The notes beneath the pieces are model-generated. The model worked only from the letters and a program-made list of their open reading frames with translations. It did no database searches and was not told where the DNA came from. A DNA stretch of 64,000 nucleotides from Paenibacillus dendritiformis (lineage in GTDB: Bacteria > Bacillota > Bacilli > Paenibacillales > Paenibacillaceae), in NCBI RefSeq assembly GCF_945605565.1, contig NZ_OX216966.1, positions 3,898,001 through 3,962,000 of the forward strand, given 5' to 3'. The position numbers were made by a program, and so were the translations under genes. Below, piece after piece: positions 12,985-23,928 of the stretch (the first letter of the stretch is position 1; each line of letters starts with the position of its first letter).

Positions 12985-13018
12985 AAGCCGATCTTCCCAG
13001 GAGGAAAATCGGCTTTTA
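12985..13018 (+). terminator. Terminator after the MATE gene
   Basis: AAGCCGAT and ATCGGCTT form an 8-bp stem around a 15-base loop, followed by TTATCATTATATTTT. Confidence 0.65.
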
Positions 13019-13104
13019 TCATTATATTTTCCTAGTCTACAGCAAGGAGCTCTATGATAAAATTACCTTCAATGAGCATTTTTCAACATTGGGGAGGACA
13101 CTGC

Positions 13105-14103
13105 GTGCATAACCGACAAGTGAAACTGCTAGCTAGCGGCAAATATTTGCCAAGACGAAAACTGACATCCGCCGATATGGATCGGCTTCTTGGCGTGCCG
13201 GACGGCTGGGTGCAGAAAAAATCCGACGTAGTGGTCCGCCATTTCATTGAAGATGAAACGGCTTCTTATATGGGGGCACAAGCCGCCCGGGAGGCGATGC
13301 GCCAGGCCGGACTTCGTCCGGGCGACATCGATTGCATTGTATGCGCGAGCGGCACCCAGGAACAGCCGATTCCTTGCAATGCAGCTCTGCTGCAAAAAGA
13401 GCTGGGACCTGAATGGTCCGGCATACCGGCTTTTGATATGAATTCGACTTGTCTGAGCTTCCTCGTCGCTCTGGATGTTATATCTTATATGATCGAAGCT
13501 TCCCGCTACCGCCGGGTGCTGATCGTCTCGTCGGAGATTGCTTCCACCGGCCTCAATTGGCAAGACAAACAGAGCGCCGCCCTGTTCGGAGACGGGGCCG
13601 CGGCGGTGATTGCCGTCAGGGCGGAGGAGACGGAATCGTCCCGGATCGCGCATACCGCGATCCGCACTTACGCGGACGGTGCCGAGCTGTCGGAAATACG
13701 CGGCGGCGGCTCAAGGCTGCATGCGACGGCCTGCAATGGGGATAATCGGGAGGATTTTTTGTTCCGGATGGACGGGCAGGCCATATATCGGATGGCTTCG
13801 AAGCTGCTGCCGGATTTCACGAAGGAGCTGCTGGACGCGGCCGGCACGCGCATGGCTGACTTCCGGCTTGTCATCCCGCATCAAGGCAGCGCGATGGCGA
13901 TGAGGCTGCTGCGCCGTAAGCTCGGAATCGCCGAGGAACAGCTTCTGTACATTACGCCGAATCACGGCAATACGATTGCCGCTTCGATCCCGATGGGCCT
14001 GCATGAAGCGATGACGCAGGGGCGCATTCGGCGCGGGGACCGCATCCTGCTGCTCGGGACGTCGGCGGGGATGACGCTTGGAGGAATGATTATTGACTAC
14101 TGA
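13105..14103 (+). CDS. FabH-like 3-oxoacyl-ACP synthase III, first gene of the biosynthetic operon
   Basis: A 332-residue thiolase-fold condensing enzyme. The catalytic triad of ketosynthase III enzymes is visible: C116 in DMNSTCLSFL, H259 in VIPHQGS and N286 in ITPNHGNT. The residues around the Cys (NSTCLSF) differ from housekeeping FabH (NAACAGF-like), which suggests a specialised acyl substrate. I chose the GTG at 13105 because GGGGAGGA sits seven bases before it and the protein then begins like FabH; an upstream ATG at 13054, with AAGGAG, would add 17 residues. The next six genes follow in the same direction with overlaps or short gaps. It probably forms a beta-keto acyl product or transfers an acyl chain to start the pathway. 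Confidence 0.88.
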   Translation: MHNRQVKLLASGKYLPRRKLTSADMDRLLGVPDGWVQKKSDVVVRHFIEDETASYMGAQAAREAMRQAGLRPGDIDCIVCASGTQEQPIPCNAALLQKELGPEWSGIPAFDMNSTCLSFLVALDVISYMIEASRYRRVLIVSSEIASTGLNWQDKQSAALFGDGAAAVIAVRAEETESSRIAHTAIRTYADGAELSEIRGGGSRLHATACNGDNREDFLFRMDGQAIYRMASKLLPDFTKELLDAAGTRMADFRLVIPHQGSAMAMRLLRRKLGIAEEQLLYITPNHGNTIAASIPMGLHEAMTQGRIRRGDRILLLGTSAGMTLGGMIIDY

Positions 14104-15301
14104 GGCGGAGCCAACCGCCGTTCTCATCACCGGAGCAAGGGCGCCGGCCGCGCTGGAGTGGGCCCGTCTGCTTCATGCGGCGGATTGCCGGGTCTATGTC
14201 TGCGACAGCCTGCCCGCATATGTGAGCCGCTTCTCGCGCGCGGCAGCAGGCGCCTTCACCGTGCCCGCGCCGAGAGACGGTGGGGAAGCTTTTGCCGATG
14301 CCATTGCAGAAGCGGTTGCGAAGCATTGCATTGCGCTTGTCGTTCCGACATGCGAGGAGATTTTTTATTTGGCCCGATACCGCGAACGGCTGGAGGAGGC
14401 CGGCGCCGCTTTGTTCGCGGACAGCCTGCCGGCATTGCTGCGGCTTCATCATAAGCTGGACTTTATCCGGACGGCTGCCTCCCACGGCTTCCGTGTTCCG
14501 GATACGCGTCTGATCGAGACGCCGGCCGACTTGAGGGAAGCGCTGTCCGCTTGGTCTGACCGGGAACGGGTCGTGCTGAAGCCGGTCTATTCCCGGTTCG
14601 CTTCTCAGGTGCAGATCGGCAGCCCCAGGCCGGGCCGGGCCCAAATTCAAGCGCCCGCGAATCTGTCGCCCGCGAATCCGTGGGTGCTGCAGCAATATAT
14701 CGAAGGAGCGCCGATCTGCACCTACAGCATCGTGCGCCACGGACACGTGGTGGCGCATGCGGCCTATGAGGCCCGCTATCGGGTCGGGCTCGGAGCGGCC
14801 GTGCAGTTCGCTGCGCTCGAACACCCGGGCGCGCTCCGCTGGGTTCGCCGCTTCGCCGAGGCTGAGCGGCTGACGGGCCAGATTGCGTTCGATTTCATAG
14901 AGGCGGCCGACGGGATGCTGTTCCCGATCGAATGCAATCCGAGGGCGACGAGCGGAATTCATCTGTTCGCCCCGGAGGACGGGATCGCGGAAGCGGCGCT
15001 GCGCCATGCCGATCCGGCTCGCGAACAGGGGCTGATCGCTCCGCCGGACGGACGCCAAGCGATGATCGGGTTCGCGATGGCCGCATGTCTGCTGCGCCGC
15101 GGGCTGACGTGGGCGGAGCGCAGGGAAGCGCTTCGCGCGCTGCGCAGGAGCCGGGATGTGCTATTCCGGGCTCGCGATCCTTGGCCTGTCCTGGGGCAAG
15201 TCCCGGCGATGTTCGCCCTGCTTCGCCTTGGACGGGAGCATGGCGTGCCGCTGATGGAAGCAAGCACAATCGATCTGGAATGGAATGGTGATGCGATATG
15301 A
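14093..15301 (+). CDS. ATP-grasp ligase-like protein
   Basis: A 402-residue protein with an N-terminal Rossmann-like preATP-grasp domain and a central ATP-grasp fold: RVVLKPVYSRFASQVQ (ATP-binding Lys) near residue 160, VLQQYIEGAPICTYS near 200 and the metal-binding FPIECNPRATSG near 280. The family joins a carboxylate to an amine, thiol or hydroxyl through an acyl phosphate. The TTG start overlaps the ketosynthase gene by 11 bases, a sign of tight coupling. In this operon it may link an acid to an amine or alcohol; the partners are unknown. GC content is high. Confidence 0.8.
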   Translation: MTTEAEPTAVLITGARAPAALEWARLLHAADCRVYVCDSLPAYVSRFSRAAAGAFTVPAPRDGGEAFADAIAEAVAKHCIALVVPTCEEIFYLARYRERLEEAGAALFADSLPALLRLHHKLDFIRTAASHGFRVPDTRLIETPADLREALSAWSDRERVVLKPVYSRFASQVQIGSPRPGRAQIQAPANLSPANPWVLQQYIEGAPICTYSIVRHGHVVAHAAYEARYRVGLGAAVQFAALEHPGALRWVRRFAEAERLTGQIAFDFIEAADGMLFPIECNPRATSGIHLFAPEDGIAEAALRHADPAREQGLIAPPDGRQAMIGFAMAACLLRRGLTWAERREALRALRRSRDVLFRARDPWPVLGQVPAMFALLRLGREHGVPLMEASTIDLEWNGDAI

Positions 15302-16296
15302 AGGCATTGGTAACAGGGGCGACGGGTTTTCTCGGCATGTGCCTCGCCCGGCGGCTGCATCAGGCGGGCTGGGATGTCACCGCCGTCGGCCGCGACAAGG
15401 GGAGGGGGGCGCGGCTGACGGCCGCCGGCATCCGGTTCCTTCCATTGGATCTGGGCGACCAGGATGCCGTGCTGCGCGCGGGCGAACAGCAGCAAGCGGT
15501 GTTCCACTGCGCGGGGCTGTCCACCGTGTGGGGCACGTATGCCGACTTCCATGCGGGCAACGTCACGGCCACCGAGCATCTGCTCGAAGCCGCGCAGCGT
15601 CACGGGGCGCAGCGGTTCGTATTCGTCTCGACGCCGAGCGTCTACTTCGATTATACCGACCGCCTTGAGGTCGGCGAGGACAGCAAGCTGCCCGCCCGCT
15701 TCGCCAACGATTATGTCCGCACGAAATATATGGCGGAGGTACGGGTGCGCGAAGCGATGGACGGCGGACTGTCCGCGATCATTCTGCGCCCGCGCGCACT
15801 CTTCGGTCCCGGCGACCGGGCGCTGTTCCCGCGCTTGATGAGGGCGAACCGCGAGCGCGGAATTCCGCTCATCGACGGCGGCCGGGCGCTGCTGGACTTG
15901 ACCTATGTGGACAATGTCGCGGAGGCGTTGATCTGCTGCGCGAGCGCGCCGGAATCGGCCTGCGGGCAAGTGTACAACATTAGCAACGGCGAGCCGATCC
16001 GGTTCATCGACGCGGTGAACCGCTTGTTCGCGGAGATGGGCGAGACGCCGCGGTTTCGCCGCGTTCCGTACCGGGCAGTCATGGGCATGGCTGCGGGAAT
16101 GGAGGCGGTATACCGGCTGTTCAAGCTGAACGGGGAGCCTCCGATCACGCGCTATTCGGTCGGCGTCGTCAGCCGCAGCCAGACGCTGGATATCCGCAAG
16201 GCGAGAGAGCAGCTCGGTTACGAGCCGCAAGTCAGCTTGCAGGAAGGCTTCGCGCGCTTTGCGGCATGGTGGAAGAAGGAGCACGCGTCCCATTGA
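15298..16296 (+). CDS. OleD-like NAD(P)-dependent epimerase/reductase
   Basis: A 332-residue extended SDR (3-beta-HSD type). The nucleotide loop is TGATGFLG at residues 7-14 and the catalytic set includes the STPSVYFD strand and a Y-x3-K (YVRTKYMAE) near residue 140. The stretch AGLSTVWGTYADFHAGNV with STPSVYF closely recalls OleD, which reduces the beta-keto acid made by OleA in long-chain olefin/beta-lactone biosynthesis. Its ATG overlaps the ATP-grasp stop. Next to a FabH-like enzyme this suggests condensation followed by keto reduction. The OleD relation is by eye and should be read as similarity, not identity. Confidence 0.85.
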   Translation: MKALVTGATGFLGMCLARRLHQAGWDVTAVGRDKGRGARLTAAGIRFLPLDLGDQDAVLRAGEQQQAVFHCAGLSTVWGTYADFHAGNVTATEHLLEAAQRHGAQRFVFVSTPSVYFDYTDRLEVGEDSKLPARFANDYVRTKYMAEVRVREAMDGGLSAIILRPRALFGPGDRALFPRLMRANRERGIPLIDGGRALLDLTYVDNVAEALICCASAPESACGQVYNISNGEPIRFIDAVNRLFAEMGETPRFRRVPYRAVMGMAAGMEAVYRLFKLNGEPPITRYSVGVVSRSQTLDIRKAREQLGYEPQVSLQEGFARFAAWWKKEHASH

Positions 16297-16367
16297 ATGA
16301 ACGGGATGACCGATTAACCTCATTTTTCAGAATAGACAGGACGGAAGGACAGGATGGAGTGGAAGCC

Positions 16368-17240
16368 ATGAGCAGCATCAATCGCACCGCAGTTCGGCTT
16401 ACCTGGCTGATGACAGGCTGGTGCACGCACCCGGAGTGGGTGACCATAAGGAACGGATCGCTTCGCAAGGCCGTGTTCCCGGCGGGCTTCGCCGTCATCG
16501 AACACCCCGCGAAGGGGATTGTCCTCTTCGATACCGGTTACGCTTCCCGCTTCTTCGAGGCGGCGGCGGGATGGCCTTATCGCTTGTACCGGATGATCAC
16601 GCCCGTCCGGTTCGAAGAGAGGGAAGGCGCCGCCGCACAGGTGAAGGCACGGTTCGGGTCGGAGGCGGCCGATGTGGGAACGATCATCGTCTCCCACTTC
16701 CATGCCGATCATATCGGGGGATTGAAGGATTTCCCGAACGCCCGCTTCCACTGCTTCCGATCCGCATACGAGGCGGTTCGGGGCAAGCGCGGGTGGTCTG
16801 CGCTGCGCGCCGGTTTCTTGCCGGAGCTGATGCCGGATGATTTCGAGGCGCGTTCGGTTATGATTGCGGATACGGGCGAAGGAGCAGAACGGATGAAGCT
16901 GCCGGACGGGCTGCCATTCGCTTATGGCTTCGACCTGTTCGGGGACGGCAGCGTCGTGGCGGTTGACGTGTCCGGGCATGCGCACGGACAGATGGGGATA
17001 TTCGTGACGACGGAGCGCGGAACCTTCTTCCTGTGCGCGGACGCTGCCTGGTCCAGCCGGGCCATCCGGGAGCGCCGGCCGCCTCATCTGGCCGCCGGGA
17101 TCATTATGTCAAGCCGCTCCGATTACCGGGACCGCTTCGAGCGGCTGTGCCGGCTCCATGAAGCGCGCCCGGATATTCGCATCGTGCCGAGCCATTGCCG
17201 GGAGGCGGACCGGCATGTCAATCAGGAGGGGAATCCATGA
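16368..17240 (+). CDS. Metallo-beta-lactamase-fold hydrolase
   Basis: A 290-residue MBL-fold enzyme. The dinuclear metal motif is SHFHADHIGG (HxHxDH), with later ligands in DVSGHAHGQMG and CADAAW and a final His in VPSHCREADRH. This arrangement resembles lactonases and thioester hydrolases of the MBL group. An earlier in-frame ATG at 16266 would overlap the reductase gene; the ATG at 16368, with GGAGTGGA upstream and MSSINRTAVRL as first residues, is preferred. Its stop overlaps the next start. It might release a product from a carrier or open a lactone; the real substrate is unknown. Confidence 0.85.
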   Translation: MSSINRTAVRLTWLMTGWCTHPEWVTIRNGSLRKAVFPAGFAVIEHPAKGIVLFDTGYASRFFEAAAGWPYRLYRMITPVRFEEREGAAAQVKARFGSEAADVGTIIVSHFHADHIGGLKDFPNARFHCFRSAYEAVRGKRGWSALRAGFLPELMPDDFEARSVMIADTGEGAERMKLPDGLPFAYGFDLFGDGSVVAVDVSGHAHGQMGIFVTTERGTFFLCADAAWSSRAIRERRPPHLAAGIIMSSRSDYRDRFERLCRLHEARPDIRIVPSHCREADRHVNQEGNP

Positions 17241-18559
17241 GAGCGACACCGCTCATCGCATTTGCTTCACGTTATCTCCATACGCTGCGCATCGGGAGGA
17301 TTCGCTCCCGGTCTGCGCTGGAGCGGTGGCAGGAGCGGAAAATCGTGCGCCATATCGCGACAGTGCGCGCGCGATCCTCTTTTTACCGCGAGCTGTGGGA
17401 AGGATGGCCCGACACGGAGTGGAGACAATTTCCGATTATCGAGAAAGCGGAGATGATGACGCATTTCGATCGGCTGAACACGGTCGGCGTCTGCAAGGAG
17501 GAGGCGCTGGAGATCGCGCTGCGGGCGGAGCGTACCCGGGATTTCCGCTCCGCCATCGGCTCGGTCACGATCGGGCTGTCGTCGGGAACGAGCGGGAACC
17601 GCGGCCTGTTCATCGTCAGCGAGCGGGAACATCTCGCCTGGGCGGGAACTGTCCTGGCGAAGCTGCTGCCGGGAGCGCTGCTGCGCGGCGAACGGATCGC
17701 CTTCTTCCTCCGGGCGGACAGCAAGCTGTATCAGAGCGTGCGGCAGGGCCGGCTGCAATTCGCCTTTTTCGATCTGCTGTCTTCGTATGACGAGCATATC
17801 GAACGGTTGAATGCGTTGCGCCCGACCGTCGTCGTAGGGCCGCCATCCCTGCTGCGGATGCTGGCGGCCTCCCGAAGCGCGGGGGAGCTGCCGATCCGGC
17901 CCCGCAAGATCATCTCGGTCGCGGAAGTGCTCGATCCGCTCGACCGCGCCTTCATCGAAGCCGCCTTCGAGCAGCGGCTTCACCAGGTGTACCAATGCAC
18001 CGAGGGCTTTCTCGCGTCGACCTGCGCTTACGGCACGATTCATATCAATGAGGATATCGTTCACATTGACAAGGAATACGTTGACGCGGCTCACGGCAAA
18101 TTTGTTCCGATTGTGACCGATTTTTCCCGTCTTGCGCAGCCCATTATCCGCTATCGGCTGAACGATATGCTGACGGAGAAAAAGGACGTTTGCCCGTGCG
18201 GATCGCCATTTATGGCCATCGAATCGATCGATGGCCGCTGCGATGATCTGTTCTACGTGCCTGCCGCCGAGGACAGCGGGAAGACGATTCCGTTATTTCC
18301 GGACTTCATCTCCCGGGCGATTATCGGGGCGTCGGACCGGATTGAGGAATATGAGGCGGTGCAGTTGTCGCCGGAGCGGATGCGCGTTGCCCTGCGCATC
18401 GATCCCGCTTCGCGTCCGCAGGCAGAGGAAGCGGTGCGCGCGATGCTGGGCGACCTGTGCCGGCAAGCGGGCTGCCAGCCAATGGGGATCGAGTTCGCGC
18501 CGTATGTGCGAACGGCGGGAGACCGGAAGCTCAGACGAGTGCGGAGGAGTTGGACATGA
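17237..18559 (+). CDS. F390-synthetase-like adenylate-forming enzyme
   Basis: A 440-residue member of the ANL-like group related to coenzyme F390 synthetase and phenylacetate-CoA ligase. The phosphate-binding loop is LSSGTSGNRGLF near residue 118, followed by VVGPPSLLRMLA and the adenylate-binding YQCTEGFLASTC and RYRLNDML. These enzymes activate a carboxylate as an acyl-AMP for transfer. The ATG with AGGAGGGG upstream overlaps the MBL stop (ATGA). With the ketosynthase and OleD-like reductase it could activate a hydroxy acid, a role played in the Ole pathway by OleC, to which it is only distantly similar. It is short for a CoA ligase. Confidence 0.82.
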   Translation: MRATPLIAFASRYLHTLRIGRIRSRSALERWQERKIVRHIATVRARSSFYRELWEGWPDTEWRQFPIIEKAEMMTHFDRLNTVGVCKEEALEIALRAERTRDFRSAIGSVTIGLSSGTSGNRGLFIVSEREHLAWAGTVLAKLLPGALLRGERIAFFLRADSKLYQSVRQGRLQFAFFDLLSSYDEHIERLNALRPTVVVGPPSLLRMLAASRSAGELPIRPRKIISVAEVLDPLDRAFIEAAFEQRLHQVYQCTEGFLASTCAYGTIHINEDIVHIDKEYVDAAHGKFVPIVTDFSRLAQPIIRYRLNDMLTEKKDVCPCGSPFMAIESIDGRCDDLFYVPAAEDSGKTIPLFPDFISRAIIGASDRIEEYEAVQLSPERMRVALRIDPASRPQAEEAVRAMLGDLCRQAGCQPMGIEFAPYVRTAGDRKLRRVRRSWT

Positions 18560-19719
18560 AGACCGATTCCATTTTGCTCTATGATGCGTCCACGATCTCC
18601 GCTCTCGCCTGGCCGGATACCGCGGACGGGCGGTACGCCAAGAGCTTCCTGCTTCCGCTGATGGAACCGGGCGTGTCCGCGTATATCCGCAACGCGAACA
18701 CGAGACTGATGGCATTGAGCGTGGACGGCATGATTCTGCCCGCCACGGTCGGAGACGGGGAATACGGCGACAATACGTTCGTCTGCTCCCCGTACACCCA
18801 TTATGTCCGTTATGCGAAGCAGGAGCTCGACAGGCTCCCGAGCCGGCCGCTGCGGGCGGGCCTGTCGGTTCTGTTGAACGGGATCGGCGCCGGGCTGCGA
18901 GCCGCGCGGTTCGACTCCTGCGTGATGGTCAACAATTGGCTGTTGTCAACCAATCTGTATCCGGAACGGTTTGCGGCGAGCCATATGCGCGATGTCGTCC
19001 GTGTATTGAAGATGCAGTTCCCGCGGCATGCGATTATGCTCCGCTCGCTGACTTCTTCCCTGCATGCCCCTCTGCTGGAGGCTTGCCGCCAAGAAGGCGC
19101 CTGCCTCGTGCCGAGCCGGCAGGTATATCTGCTTCGTCCCGCCGATCCCGAATGGCAAAATGCCAAGGCGCGCTGGCTGCTAAAGCGGGATTATGCGCTG
19201 ATCGAACGGCATGGCTACGCGATCGAAGGTCCCGAGCATATTCAGGAATCGGATGTGCCCCGAATCGAGGAGCTGTACGGCAAGCTCTATCTGGAGAAGT
19301 ACTCGCGCTTCAACCCGGACTTCTCCGCCGACTTCATTCGCCTTGCCCTGCGGGACGGCATTTTGCAGCTTCACGGCTTGCGCAAAGATGGCCGCTTGGA
19401 TGCGGTGCTCGGATTTTTCTGCCGAGACGGGGTAATGACGACGCCGTTGTTCGGCTATGATACGGCGCTGCCGCAGCAGCTTGGCCTGTACCGGATGCTG
19501 TCGGCGGCTCTTCTGGAGCTGGCGCGGGAAAATGGGCATCTGCTGCACGAGAGCTCGGGAGCGGCGCAGTTCAAGCGGAATCGGGGCGCGCGGGCGGATA
19601 TCGAGTACAGCGCCGTGTTCTGCGATCATCTGCCGCCAGGCACGAAGCTCGCGTGGAGATCGCTGGCCGGTCTGCTGACACGCGTCGGCATTCCGGTGAT
19701 GCGCAAATACAAGCTGTAG
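18556..19719 (+). CDS. GNAT/FemAB-like acyltransferase candidate
   Basis: A 387-residue protein not firmly recognised. The C-terminal part (about 200-370), with ESDVPRIEELYGKLYLEKYS, LQLHGLRKDGRLDAVLGFF and ESSGAAQFKRNRGA, looks like the GNAT-fold of BioF2-like acyltransferases that move an acyl or aminoacyl group onto an amine. The N-terminal 190 residues have no motif I know. The ATG overlaps the adenylating-enzyme stop and has GGAGGAG nearby. Found in this operon it may use the activated acyl group. Confidence 0.55.
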   Translation: MKTDSILLYDASTISALAWPDTADGRYAKSFLLPLMEPGVSAYIRNANTRLMALSVDGMILPATVGDGEYGDNTFVCSPYTHYVRYAKQELDRLPSRPLRAGLSVLLNGIGAGLRAARFDSCVMVNNWLLSTNLYPERFAASHMRDVVRVLKMQFPRHAIMLRSLTSSLHAPLLEACRQEGACLVPSRQVYLLRPADPEWQNAKARWLLKRDYALIERHGYAIEGPEHIQESDVPRIEELYGKLYLEKYSRFNPDFSADFIRLALRDGILQLHGLRKDGRLDAVLGFFCRDGVMTTPLFGYDTALPQQLGLYRMLSAALLELARENGHLLHESSGAAQFKRNRGARADIEYSAVFCDHLPPGTKLAWRSLAGLLTRVGIPVMRKYKL

Positions 19720-19733
19720 GGAAGGGGAGACCG

Positions 19734-20603
19734 ATGGAAATGACTAAGCGCGATGCAGGCAAAGCGGCGGATCACCCCGTGGCCTTCGTCACGGGCGCTT
19801 CGAGCGGGTTCGGCATGCTGGCCTCCGTGAAGCTGGCGGAGCAGGGATACCGGGTAATTGCGACGATGCGGGGCACGTCCCGGCCGGAGGCATTGGCCGC
19901 ACTGGCGGCGGCACACGGCGTGGAGTCCCGCTTGGAAGTGCGCCGGGTCGATGTTACGGATGCGGCTTCCATCGAAGCGGCCGTGGCGCATGCGCTCGGG
20001 GCCTATGGCCGAATCGACCTGCTCGTCAACAATGCGGGATACGCGCAGGGCGGCTATGTGGAGGACGTGACGATGGAGCAATGGCGGGCGCAATTCGAGA
20101 CGAACGTGTTCGGTGCGATTGCCGCCGCGAAGGCAGTGCTGCCCCATATGCGGGAGCAAGGCCGCGGCACGATCATCAATATCGGAAGCATCAGCGGCCG
20201 GATCGCGTTTCCCGGCTACGCGCCGTATGCCGCGGCCAAGTTCGCGATCGAGGGCTTCAGCGAGTCGCTTCGGTTGGAAATGAAGCCGTATGGCGTCGAT
20301 GTGGTCCTGATCGAACCTGGCGCGTATCCGACGAATATCTGGGAGAAGGGATTCTCGTCCATGGCGGTAGACGATGCTTCCCCATACCGGAACCGTCTGG
20401 AGAACATCCTGCGCTTCTCCAGGCAAAGCGCCTCCTCCAAGGCCGATCCATGGGAAGTCGCCCATCTGATCGCGCGCATCGCGGCGGACAAGCGGCCGCG
20501 CTTCCGCTATCCGATCGGGAGCGGGGCGCGCCTTCTCCTTGCGGCGAAGGCGCTTCTGCCATGGGCGCTCATTGAGAAGGCGGTCATGCGCATCCTTCGC
20601 TGA
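19734..20603 (+). CDS. Short-chain dehydrogenase/reductase, last gene of the operon
   Basis: A 289-residue classical SDR. The cofactor loop is TGASSGFG near residue 20, NNAGYAQGG near 100, and the active site is Ser in IGSISGRIAF with Y-x3-K in YAPYAAAKFAIEG near 164. Such enzymes interconvert ketones and alcohols with NAD(P)H. GGGGAGA precedes the ATG and the gap from the previous gene is 14 bases, so it belongs to the same transcript. No clear terminator hairpin was found in the next 170 bases. Confidence 0.88.
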   Translation: MEMTKRDAGKAADHPVAFVTGASSGFGMLASVKLAEQGYRVIATMRGTSRPEALAALAAAHGVESRLEVRRVDVTDAASIEAAVAHALGAYGRIDLLVNNAGYAQGGYVEDVTMEQWRAQFETNVFGAIAAAKAVLPHMREQGRGTIINIGSISGRIAFPGYAPYAAAKFAIEGFSESLRLEMKPYGVDVVLIEPGAYPTNIWEKGFSSMAVDDASPYRNRLENILRFSRQSASSKADPWEVAHLIARIAADKRPRFRYPIGSGARLLLAAKALLPWALIEKAVMRILR

Positions 20604-20723
20604 TCGGGCTTCCGTGGGAGAAGGCGATCAGGGCTCTCTGCCAAAGCTCTCTGCCAAATAATTCGCCGCTCTATGCAACCTTCTGCGAATCATCTCCGTC
20701 TGAGAGTGTGAAAAAGCGGTCAA

Positions 20724-20739
20724 CCAATTGCGCAATTGG
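20724..20739. promoter_or_regulatory. Perfect palindrome upstream of the stalk-domain gene
   Basis: CCAATTGCGCAATTGG is a perfect 16-base palindrome 41 bases before the start codon. It could be an operator. Confidence 0.35.
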
Positions 20740-20780
20740 AGTCCATGATATGACCTGCACTCCAGAGAGGATGACGTCGA

Positions 20781-21743
20781 ATGAACAAAACCATCACCGC
20801 TTCTCTCGCTTTGGCGATCGCTCTGATGAGCGCACAATCTTTGGCCGGGCCGGTGAGCGCGATGAACGAACAAGGAACGGCAGTTCCCGTGGCACAAGAA
20901 CGTAATTTTTATGATGCATATGTGAAGCAGTTCGTCCATAACGATAACGGAGAGATCATCGGCACGACCCGCGAGACGAGCCTCAATCAGGACTGGCTGA
21001 AACTCGTCTCCGAGCGGTACAGCTTGACCGTTGACGGCCAGAGCGTCGATGCCGGCGCTGTCCTGGACGGTAACTACCTCCTCATTCCGCTGCGGCCGGT
21101 CATGGAGGAGATGGGGTACGAATTGACATGGAACGCCGAGAACAAGTCGGTCGAAGCCGTAAAGGGTGCCCTATGGACGAGCGTGGAGCTGAATAAGGAT
21201 CAGTACAATTACGCGAAGATTCCGATCCAGCTTGGCAAAGCTCCCGTGATCAAAGAAAATAGGATGTACGTGCCGCTGCAATTTGCAGGCGGAGTACTGA
21301 AGGCGGATGTGAGCTTGAATGAGCAAGGCGATATCACGATCCAGAGCCGGCCGGATCAGATCCCGGAAGATTCCTTCGGCGGCATGCATTGGGTGATCGT
21401 CGTCAATGGCGAAGGCATCGGCGTCCCGTCTGAGGACGTATTCACGACGGAAGATGACGTGATGGTGCCGGCGGAAGCGATCGGGAAGGCGCTTGGCTAT
21501 ACGGTCGAGAATAACAAGGAGACAGGCGCCTGCGAATTCGTGCGCGGCGCGAAATGGATCGCCTTGAAGGAAGGCGGGACCACGGCCGCCGTCGGCAAAA
21601 TGAACGTCGAATTGAAAACGGCCCCGATCGTCAAGGACGGCAAGCTGTATCTTCCGTTCAGCTCGCTTGCGGATGTATTCAACGTGAAGACGGGCATCGA
21701 TCCGACCGGCGTCATTGGAATTCAGGAAGAGTTCTCATCATAG
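20781..21743 (+). CDS. Secreted stalk-domain (copper amine oxidase N-terminal type) protein
   Basis: A 320-residue exported protein with a signal peptide (MNKTITASLALAIALMSAQS..., cleavage likely after about residue 28). It contains three copies of the stalk-domain pattern: LIPLRPVMEEMGYELTWNAENKSVEA near 95, MYVPLQFAGGVLKADV near 155 and LYLPFSSLADVFNVKTG near 295, with a fourth degenerate unit (VMVPAEAIGKALGYTVE) near 225. Paenibacillus encodes many such proteins; the domain is thought to bind surfaces or partners and shows no enzyme site. AGAGAGG precedes the ATG. It is monocistronic. Confidence 0.88.
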   Translation: MNKTITASLALAIALMSAQSLAGPVSAMNEQGTAVPVAQERNFYDAYVKQFVHNDNGEIIGTTRETSLNQDWLKLVSERYSLTVDGQSVDAGAVLDGNYLLIPLRPVMEEMGYELTWNAENKSVEAVKGALWTSVELNKDQYNYAKIPIQLGKAPVIKENRMYVPLQFAGGVLKADVSLNEQGDITIQSRPDQIPEDSFGGMHWVIVVNGEGIGVPSEDVFTTEDDVMVPAEAIGKALGYTVENNKETGACEFVRGAKWIALKEGGTTAAVGKMNVELKTAPIVKDGKLYLPFSSLADVFNVKTGIDPTGVIGIQEEFSS

Positions 21744-21780
21744 ACAACAAGAGATAAACATACTTAAGATATGAAAAAGG

Positions 21781-21837
21781 AAAAGACATGCTTCGGAGAA
21801 AATCCCGGACCAAGGGAAAGCTCCTGGCATGTCTTTT
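21781..21837 (+). terminator. Terminator after the stalk-domain gene
   Basis: AAAAGACATGC and GCATGTCTTTT form a perfect 11-bp stem around a 35-base loop. Confidence 0.6.
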
Positions 21838-21983
21838 ATTGTGCAATGACGAAGGAAGAGCAGCAAATACAACAATCCTGCATCTGCTGCGCTTGAATAC
21901 ACGAATTGAAGTACGTTTTCTAAACCTAGACATATGATGTTATTACAAACGCCTATGAAACGTCTATGGAGGGAATGACCAAA

Positions 21984-22886
21984 ATGTACTATGTTCCTCA
22001 AACGTACTTATACCCATATTGCGCGAATCCTGACACATCAATATATCACCCGGACTATACGCTAAGAACTCAACAAGAATACTTTCAACAAGTATTTGAT
22101 GCTATACTTTCCGGAATACAAAGAGAAGCTTCAGCTATTGATCTTTATCGTCGATTAGCCGATGCGGCGCCAAACTATAACCATAGAAATAACATTCTAA
22201 ATGCCTTGGAATACAAAAAAATGCATTTAAAACGATTTACAGATCTTTATACCTCGCTTACTGGAAGACAGCCTATCTACCAAATGGATAGAGTGTTTTT
22301 TCATAGTTATAGAGAAGGTCTAATGCAGGCCCATGAAGCAGGATTGCAGGGTTATGAAGAATATAGAAAGAACTGTTCGCTTACTCAGTACCCGCTGGTT
22401 CAAAATGTCTTTTTACATGCCTCTTCTCGAGAAAAAGAAAATGCTGCCCGATTTGCTTCTTTGCGTGAGGAAGTCTTGAAGGATTATGGATCCACGCCGT
22501 TTGTCGTTAATATCGAGAAGGTTACTAAGCAAAATAATACGTACCGTACCGCCTTGTGGACAGGAAACTATTTTCAGGTGACGGTAATGAGTATCAACGT
22601 TGGAGATGACATCGGGTTAGAAGTTCATCCGGCAACCGATCAATTCATACGTATTGAAGAAGGACACGGACTTGTTCAAATGGGTGATAGCAAAGACAAG
22701 TTGGACTTCGAGCAAGAAGCCTATGATGATTATGCAATCATGATACCTGCTGGAAAATGGCACAATTTGACCAATATAGGCAATAAGCCACTTAAAATTT
22801 ACGTTATCTATGCGCCGCCTGAGCATCCGTATGGTACAGTTCATGAAACCAAAGCAGTTGCAATGGCTTCTGAAAAAAACCACTAA
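21984..22886 (+). CDS. Ferritin-like / cupin fusion protein
   Basis: A 300-residue protein with two domains. Residues 30-165 look like a ferritin-like four-helix bundle (REASAIDLYRRLADAAP, ALEYKKMHLKRFTDLYTSL, spaced E and H). Residues 185-280 are a cupin barrel: MSINVGDDIGLEVHPATDQFIRIEEG and later IPAGKWHNLTN supply the His/Glu metal ligands. A metal-dependent protective or oxidative role is plausible but unproven. The ATG at 21984 is ten bases after GGAGGG; earlier in-frame ATGs at 21966 and 21975 lie on top of that site. The Tyr-rich start is like spore-coat proteins. Base composition is clearly more AT-rich than the preceding operon. Confidence 0.75.
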   Translation: MYYVPQTYLYPYCANPDTSIYHPDYTLRTQQEYFQQVFDAILSGIQREASAIDLYRRLADAAPNYNHRNNILNALEYKKMHLKRFTDLYTSLTGRQPIYQMDRVFFHSYREGLMQAHEAGLQGYEEYRKNCSLTQYPLVQNVFLHASSREKENAARFASLREEVLKDYGSTPFVVNIEKVTKQNNTYRTALWTGNYFQVTVMSINVGDDIGLEVHPATDQFIRIEEGHGLVQMGDSKDKLDFEQEAYDDYAIMIPAGKWHNLTNIGNKPLKIYVIYAPPEHPYGTVHETKAVAMASEKNH

Positions 22887-22904
22887 TTAAATTGAATTAA
22901 TAAA

Positions 22905-22928
22905 GGGAAGCCATAAGAGTGGCTTCCC
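22905..22928. terminator. Bidirectional terminator
   Basis: GGGAAGCCA and TGGCTTCCC form a perfect 9-bp stem around TAAGAG between two converging genes. A T-rich stretch follows on the + strand (TTCTATTTT) and A-rich sequence precedes it, so it can serve both. Confidence 0.7.
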
Positions 22929-22947
22929 CGTTCTATTTTCCCGCCTC

Positions 22948-23928
22948 TTATGCGCTCTGCTCCTTGCCGGCAGCTCCAGGCTTCGCCGGCGCGAACCGCC
23001 GTCCCGACAAGCTGGTCGCCATCATGCCGATAATGACAATGATCATACCCGCCATGGACCAGCCCTGCGGGAATGAGCCGTTCAACAGCAGCACTTCGCC
23101 CAGCACGGTAAATACCATCGTGCCGGATTGGGTCGATTCGACCGCGGCCAACAGCATCGCGTTATGCTTCGCCATATCGGTGGCGAGGAAGAACAACAGG
23201 CTGGCGATCACGCCGGAGCAGATGGCGAGCAGCAGCGCCTGCAGCAGCTGCGGGCTTGTCGGCCAGCCGACGGTTGCCGTTCCGTACGAGCCAAGCAGGA
23301 TCGCGATCGGCAGACTGCTGATCGCCATGCCCAGCGTGCGCTGGAAGGTGTCCAGCCTGCCGTGGCACAGCTCCATCATCTTGCGGTTGCCGAGCGGATA
23401 GAGGAAGGCGGCGACGAGCACCGGAAGGAAGCCCGCCAGCAGCTCGGACATCGTAATTTGCCCCGCTTCGGTCACTTGCATGAGGATGACCCCGATTAAT
23501 ATAATGACAGATATACGCAAGCTTTTATAGGGAATGGCCTGCCGCACTTGGCGCGGCCCATCCGGCCCAGGCACGGTAACGAAAAAGAGCGGCGACAGCA
23601 AGGCTCCCGCCAGTATTGTAATCTGCCACGTTCCGGAAGTGAGCCAGGACGGGGCGTAGACCGCCGCGAAGCTGAGCAGCGAGTAGAAGCCGACGCCGCC
23701 AAGGGTGCCCCAGAGCAGCCATTGCAGCGGATGCTTGCGCATCTCGCGGAACAGGCCCGCCAGGTTGCCGCGGAAGGCGACGATGGCGATCAGAAAGGGA
23801 AGCGCCAGCAGAAAACGGAGCGACGCGGTCCATGCCCAACTCGTGCCGGACAGGTTCATGGCGCGATTGATGATAAAGGTCGCCGAGAAGAACAGCGACG
23901 ATAATATGCCAACGATGATGGCTCTCAT
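22948..23928 (-). CDS. DMT-superfamily exporter (EmrE/EamA-like, multidrug type)
   Basis: A 326-residue membrane protein with ten hydrophobic segments in two repeats. The first begins IVGILSSLFFSATFIINRAMNLSG, and the second includes LAGFLPVLVAAFLYPLGNRKMM. Members export drugs or metabolites. The start MRAIIVG was chosen because GAGGTGAG lies four bases upstream; the longer frame from 23958 has no such site. It is divergent from an XRE-cupin regulator gene, with a shared 115-base region, which suggests local control. Confidence 0.85.
   Translation of the reverse strand: MRAIIVGILSSLFFSATFIINRAMNLSGTSWAWTASLRFLLALPFLIAIVAFRGNLAGLFREMRKHPLQWLLWGTLGGVGFYSLLSFAAVYAPSWLTSGTWQITILAGALLSPLFFVTVPGPDGPRQVRQAIPYKSLRISVIILIGVILMQVTEAGQITMSELLAGFLPVLVAAFLYPLGNRKMMELCHGRLDTFQRTLGMAISSLPIAILLGSYGTATVGWPTSPQLLQALLLAICSGVIASLLFFLATDMAKHNAMLLAAVESTQSGTMVFTVLGEVLLLNGSFPQGWSMAGMIIVIIGMMATSLSGRRFAPAKPGAAGKEQSA

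Follow-up and report, generated by a model that had tools for sequence, protein, structure and literature searches.

A conserved seven-gene operon in Paenibacillus dendritiformis that may assemble a small lipid-like molecule

A seven-gene operon conserved in Paenibacillaceae

We analysed a 64,000-nucleotide stretch of the Paenibacillus dendritiformis genome (contig NZ_OX216966.1, positions 3,898,001 to 3,962,000; hereafter the window), which carries on its + strand, between positions 13105 and 20603, seven open reading frames (ORFs) that overlap their neighbours or lie at most 71 bases from them (Table 1). The six junctions consist of four overlaps (11, 4, 4 and 4 bases) and two gaps (71 and 14 bases). 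An earlier note on this DNA had described seven genes overlapping or separated by at most about 70 bases and had called them an uncharacterised biosynthetic operon; both statements hold. A search of the open-access literature, outside of which most subscription papers fall, returned no description of the operon or its product. The operon is conserved as a unit, its active-site residues are intact, and we regard it as practically certain that the seven genes form a real conserved operon.

Table 1 Genes and putative signals at the locus
Feature	Position	Strand	Basis or remark
KASIII ketosynthase (KS), CorB/MxnB-like	13105-14103	+	NF005541, PDB sequence search
ATP-grasp ligase, carbamoyl-phosphate-synthase-like	14093-15301	+	NF005315 below cut-off, ECNPR motif
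OleD-like NAD(P)-dependent reductase, extended short-chain dehydrogenase/reductase (SDR)	15298-16296	+	NF042422 below cut-off
Metallo-beta-lactamase-fold (MBL) hydrolase, N-acylhomoserine-lactonase type	16368-17240	+	
F390-synthetase-related, PaaK-like adenylate-forming enzyme	17237-18559	+	TIGR02304
Tandem-GNAT transferase, FemX/MprF/Sbb17-like	18556-19719	+	
Classical SDR oxidoreductase	19734-20603	+	NF005372
Terminator-like hairpin, U-rich tail	12985..13015	+	between upstream MATE gene and operon
Promoter-like sigma-70 site	13036..13063	+	9/12 matches, TG ahead of second hexamer

Among 295 sampled Paenibacillaceae genomes, the F390-like model TIGR02304 scores above its cut-off in 111 and the KS model NF005541 in 110, and the two occur together in 109. 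In every one of these 109 genomes the KS gene lies upstream of the F390-like gene on the same strand, at a distance of 1.9 to 4.8 kb. The exceptions are two genomes with the F390-like gene alone (G186 and G215) and one with the KS alone (G255). Two of these three look decayed, because G186 lacks the end of the KS, the ATP-grasp gene, the reductase and the start of the MBL gene, and G215 has its KS and F390-like matches each split in two pieces, assembly errors being possible. A block truncated in this way and one with matches split in this way make up the loci L119:5948-10548 and L120:5515-13239. In a sample taken across Bacillota, only 9 of 398 genomes carry TIGR02304 above cut-off, 4 of them Paenibacillaceae; the F390-like gene is therefore frequent in Paenibacillaceae and patchy elsewhere.

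We fetched 40 neighbourhoods, 36 of them from Paenibacillaceae (picked from the 111 F390-like carriers and spanning 11 genera) and 4 from other families. All seven genes stand in the window order in 21 of the 36 loci. The earlier note had proposed a search for conserved neighbourhoods of the ATP-grasp and GNAT genes, and these are indeed found in 34 and 27 of the 36; the KS and the OleD-like reductase are present in 36 each, the MBL hydrolase in 35 and the last SDR in 29, the count of 36 for the F390-like gene being a consequence of how the loci were chosen. The other 15 loci lack the GNAT gene only (6) or the SDR only (5), hold just a core of KS, OleD-like reductase, MBL hydrolase and F390-like enzyme (2), lack the MBL gene (L063), or lack the GNAT gene and have the SDR placed before the F390-like gene (L066). 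The order is kept in relatives at 34-64% protein identity, in addition to two close relatives at 88-94%, and its recurrence at 34-64% identity makes it more than chance. The 11-base overlap between the KS and ATP-grasp genes is likewise repeated in many fetched loci. Neither this wide distribution of the gene order in Paenibacillaceae nor the spread of the core across phyla (see below) was part of the earlier note.

The four loci from other families are more varied. L071 holds the KS, ATP-grasp, OleD-like, MBL and F390-like genes with a partial GNAT gene at the contig end, and L072 holds the core with the KS last. In L073 and L074 the F390-like protein is 34-36% identical and above cut-off, and the other six genes were not found in the 17-18 kb fetched. 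Incomplete sets were also seen: G092 carries a second, partial set of KS, OleD-like and MBL genes without F390-like or ATP-grasp genes (L118:9484-12353), its KS and F390-like genes standing together on another contig, and L117:9979-10977 is a lone NF005541 KS beside a divergent regulator-like gene, the 13.5 kb fetched containing none of the remaining core genes.

Assignment of the seven enzymes

The KS scores 456 bits on NF005541 (cut-off 402). In a PDB sequence search its best matches are CorB and MxnB, at 248 bits each, followed by the best FabH at 212; the best NCBIfam model of CorB and MxnB themselves is also NF005541, with scores of 306 and 324 bits that do not reach its cut-off. All 46 aligned copies keep the Cys-His-Asn triad. 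The stretch with the active cysteine reads CLSF in the window protein, as it does in CorB and MxnB, compared with CSGF or CAGF in three FabH-type sequences. In a tree with only four other ketosynthases (three from the same genome and one FabH), the operon copies and CorB/MxnB form one clade with a support of 0.84. The glutamate that is used by OleA and PpyS, according to PMC4578411, is found in none of 48 operon KSs, which carry Ile (24) or Leu (24) at that position; CorB and MxnB have Val, three FabH-type sequences Phe and one paralogue Pro. As FabH also lacks the glutamate, its absence does not separate CorB from FabH. In sequence, the KS is nearer to CorB and MxnB, which join chains, than to any FabH compared. 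The earlier note had called it FabH-like, of which the ketosynthase assignment stands and the nearest relative changes. PMC5724707 describes MxnB as binding and condensing two long beta-ketoacyl chains and as having a second tunnel.

The OleD-like reductase scores best on the OleD model NF042422 (259 bits, well below the cut-off of 580), and Tyr139 and Lys143 are kept in 44 of 44 aligned sequences. Five reductases were scanned, those of the window and of the E. coli, Fusobacterium, Ketogulonicigenium and Paraburkholderia records, and each has one or the other of two OleD models as its top NCBIfam match. The MBL hydrolase has an AiiA-type fold with the HxHxDH motif and the His, Asp and His ligands in the window protein and in 25 of 25 aligned sequences; in a wider set the last His ligand is present in 42 of 44 and is unaligned in two proteobacterial copies. 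None of the lactonase models that it matches reaches its cut-off, the best being AttM with 79 of 390 bits. Fold and metal ligands are shared with the N-acylhomoserine lactonases AiiA, AhlX and GcL, from which it differs in the missed cut-offs, in the unaligned ligand of the two copies and in lying inside a biosynthetic operon. We therefore sharpen the earlier "MBL hydrolase" to an enzyme of the N-acylhomoserine-lactonase type by fold and metal ligands, with lactone hydrolysis as its predicted activity. Its gene directly precedes the F390-like gene in 34 of the 36 loci, and in L068:9838-12108 the two are naturally fused in one 756-residue ORF.

The F390-like enzyme scores about twice the TIGR02304 cut-off (501 against 252 bits) and is thus a full member of a family whose name, F390 synthetase-related, assigns no reaction. 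The SxGTSG and YxxTEG motifs and the C-terminal Lys431 are present in 25 of 25 sequences, and position 116 is Ser in 23 and Thr in 2. Its nearest solved structures are PaaK-type ligases (83 bits in the PDB sequence search). Synthesis of coenzyme F390 was rejected as its function, since it reaches 24 bits on that model against a cut-off of 459. The term "F390 synthetase" appears in passages of three papers, as a mutant-table entry (PMC9823363), as a gene-list entry (PMC5467263) and as a candidate gene in a study of phenol (PMC5501837), and none of these describes the operon.

The ATP-grasp ligase comes close to the cut-off of NF005315 (362 of 406 bits), and its nearest solved structure is 2pn1 (33.5 bits). 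Its ECNPR motif, which we take to be metal-binding, is invariant in 26 of 26 sequences. The GNAT protein, named in the earlier note simply as GNAT-like, has a tandem-GNAT fold over 263-288 residues, with the highest structural scores to FemX, MprF and Sbb17 at 7-12% identity; PF13480 is its sole Pfam match, and a PDB sequence search with its profile returned one match, an unrelated photosystem protein at E 0.031. It is closest to these aminoacyl-tRNA-dependent transferases and may use aminoacyl-tRNA as they do; acyl-CoA enzymes share the fold. The last SDR scores 376 bits on NF005372 (cut-off 320) and keeps Ser155, Tyr168 and Lys172 in 32 of 32 aligned sequences. The KS, F390-like enzyme and SDR thus pass an NCBIfam model and the ATP-grasp ligase nearly does; none of these models names a pathway.

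The four-gene core beyond Paenibacillaceae

Relatives of the F390-like enzyme occur in 74 of 72,556 records of a plasmid collection. We checked nine records (L084-L092) among the 30 matches listed of these 74, and the core is complete in all nine: Pontibacillus and Paenibacillus urinalis (both Bacillota), Ketogulonicigenium, E. coli, Pseudomonas, Paraburkholderia, Rhizobium, Burkholderia and Fusobacterium. The Burkholderia (3.2 Mb) and Fusobacterium (2.1 Mb) records are unannotated, and their core was read by tblastn. The core genes are clustered in eight of the nine records and spread over about 10 kb in Pseudomonas.

What accompanies the core differs from version to version. The E. coli version (L086:7191-14072) lies beside narGHJI, with genes for PAP2, a fatty acid hydroxylase and a fatty acid desaturase as extras. 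Of 5426 complete E. coli genomes, 672 have a match to it, and in 671 the match covers 80% or more of the 6882-base query. In Fusobacterium (L092:4195-11138) the genes run SDR, family-21 glycosyltransferase, a 215-residue protein without a Pfam match, OleD-like, MBL, F390-like and KS. ATP-grasp and GNAT genes are the extras in Paraburkholderia and Rhizobium, and family-21 and EryCIII-like glycosyltransferases stand beside the core at L067. The sole NCBIfam match of the family-21 proteins is HpnI, below its cut-off. TetR- or ArsR-family regulators adjoin the core in L085, L088 and L089.

A proposed pathway and its alternatives

The KS, OleD-like, MBL and F390-like genes are present in nearly all copies, and we therefore read the core as the scaffold-building part; the lower counts of the ATP-grasp, GNAT and SDR genes point to a role in decoration. 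A product derived from fatty chains is likelier than a peptide or sugar because of the match to chain-joining ketosynthases, the OleD match and the lipid-type neighbours of the core elsewhere. We tentatively favour, at somewhat below an even chance, a horizontally spread biosynthetic operon that makes a small lipid-like molecule from chains that are joined, reduced, activated and decorated. The CorB/MxnB-type KS would take an acyl chain and join it either to a second one or to a beta-ketoacyl chain bound to a carrier, giving a branched beta-keto product, whose keto group the OleD-like enzyme would reduce to a hydroxyl. The PaaK-like enzyme would adenylate a carboxylate, and the lactonase-type hydrolase may open a lactone or ester intermediate or release the acid. 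In the longer version found in the window, the ATP-grasp ligase and the FemX/MprF-like transferase could add amino-acid groups, and the last SDR might carry out a further reduction. We infer that the product is most likely an amino-acid-decorated, chain-joined beta-hydroxy lipid or acid, or a lactone. The logic of condensation, keto reduction, activation and ligation put forward in the earlier note fits this anatomy, the chemistry of each step being predicted from the protein families.

The comparison with corallopyronin and myxopyronin synthesis extends to the KS, for which CorB and MxnB are the nearest solved relatives. Those enzymes, however, join chains from large polyketide synthase lines into alpha-pyrones, whereas the seven genes include no polyketide synthase and add a reductase, a lactonase-type hydrolase and ligases.

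The favoured pathway recalls oleABCD, the olefin and beta-lactone pathway, in which OleC closes a beta-lactone and OleB opens or decarboxylates it. The core could thus be a non-homologous parallel of that route, with the KS standing in for OleA, the PaaK-like enzyme closing a beta-lactone as OleC does and the MBL hydrolase taking the part of OleB. The same four enzyme roles (condensing enzyme, OleD-type reductase, adenylate-forming enzyme and hydrolase) are present, OleD models score the reductase best and the hydrolase is of lactonase type. Three of the four enzymes, however, come from other families: the KS has Ile or Leu in place of the OleA/PpyS glutamate, the F390-like enzyme is PaaK-type and the hydrolase has the MBL fold rather than the alpha/beta-hydrolase fold of OleB, and the OleD cut-off is missed as well. 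On this balance we judge a beta-lactone route of this kind unlikely.

More broadly, it is conceivable, if on the improbable side, that the core represents an undescribed pathway class in Bacillota, Pseudomonadota and Fusobacteriota, in which two acyl chains pass through a lactone stage to branched beta-hydroxy lipids in parallel to, and without homology to, oleABCD. Decoration would then be by amino acids in Paenibacillaceae, Paraburkholderia and Rhizobium, by sugars in Fusobacterium and by further oxidation in E. coli.

The presence of the core in three phyla and the frequency of the marker pair in Paenibacillaceae and of the E. coli version in its species, for a set of enzymes to which our search of the open-access literature found no product assigned, point to an overlooked, common bacterial metabolite, and the operon anatomy yields a directly testable pathway order.

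The KS may instead initiate in the ordinary manner of FabH, from malonyl-ACP and a starter acyl-CoA, followed by OleD-like reduction and ligation to a simple N-acyl amino acid or lipid amide. The triad is that of such an enzyme, the ATP-grasp and FemX-like genes suit the product, and the KS scores 248 bits on one FabH model (cut-off 249) and 233 on another (cut-off 292), which weighs against chain joining. Set against this are the PDB search, in which CorB and MxnB beat every FabH, and the CLSF motif, and we assign FabH-type initiation a low probability.

If the KS and reductase made a lactone or pyrone signal and the MBL hydrolase degraded it, such a signal system would agree with the proximity of the KS to pyrone-forming CorB/MxnB, the quorum-quenching-lactonase fold of the hydrolase and the regulators that adjoin the core in three records. 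The mid-operon position of the MBL gene and its fusion to the ligase look more like a pathway step, and a recurrent flanking regulator, sought in the 40 fetched neighbourhoods, was not found, the commonest flanking clusters reaching only 5, so that a signal system seems very improbable. We likewise give little credence to a ceramide-like membrane lipid pathway with its serine palmitoyltransferase outside the operon (no search for that gene was made): L067 and L092 have family-21 enzymes of the ceramide glucosyltransferase type next to the core, the E. coli extras are of lipid type and the 3-ketodihydrosphingosine reductase model NF049977 gives the SDR 208 bits, but that is below the cut-off of 400, the family-21 proteins match only HpnI, and such lipid-type neighbours are absent from the window operon.

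Base composition and history of the operon

The operon has a guanine-plus-cytosine (GC) content of 63.0%. Among 120 windows of its size, drawn from twenty samples of 20 kb each in the same genome (a single 6.72-Mb contig), just one is as GC-rich (mean 55.3%, standard deviation 3.9). As the earlier note had observed, the DNA to the right is poorer, at 52% (21001-22000) and 42% (22001-23000), the next kilobase returning to 58%. A tree was built from 45 loci with four proteins of each concatenated. Copies from the genus of the window are divided among three of its branches, kept apart by nodes of 0.87 and 1.00, a pattern that favours horizontal transfer over vertical inheritance; the branch uniting the group of the window with its neighbour L051 has a support of only 0.55. 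One copy of the operon is carried on a Paenibacillus plasmid. Horizontal spread is in keeping with the three-branch tree, the plasmid copy and the GC-rich window copy, and the latter was probably acquired in this way.

Losses are seen too, as one P. dendritiformis genome keeps the operon only in parts. This decayed copy, in strain G25-126 (L001:7788-11010), has partial KS, reductase and GNAT genes and no match to the MBL or F390-like gene; it retains the SDR, with the PAP2 and copper-amine-oxidase-like genes on its flanks, and the MATE gene was not found. It is also the one locus confirmed by a single-protein contig search with the GNAT protein, a query that finds close relatives only. The GNAT protein of the window is 88% identical to a copy labelled Paenibacillus dendritiformis.

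Boundaries and neighbouring genes

The KS gene starts with GTG, with a good ribosome-binding site (GGGGAGG) seven bases upstream and an in-frame ATG also at 13054. The hairpin ahead of it folds at -15.6 kcal/mol (z -2.65; 4 of 200 shuffles equally good) and is absent from the output of a pattern scan. As a predicted terminator it would separate the operon from its left neighbour, and the MATE gene was rejected as an operon member because this hairpin lies between. A match to the MATE protein was not found in L001, L044 or L045, and L057 has only a 25% identical one. Just 3' of the last gene (20600-20740), no fold beats the shuffles, 136 of 200 folding as well. The promoter-like site is weak, since such sites occur near chance level in the scan (6 found, 3.6 expected, standard deviation 1.9). 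Further left in the window lies a PAP2 gene, which adjoins the operon in L001, L044 and L045; none appears among the matches listed in the other fetched neighbourhoods except in L048, where a 48% identical PAP2 lies about 5.6 kb upstream.

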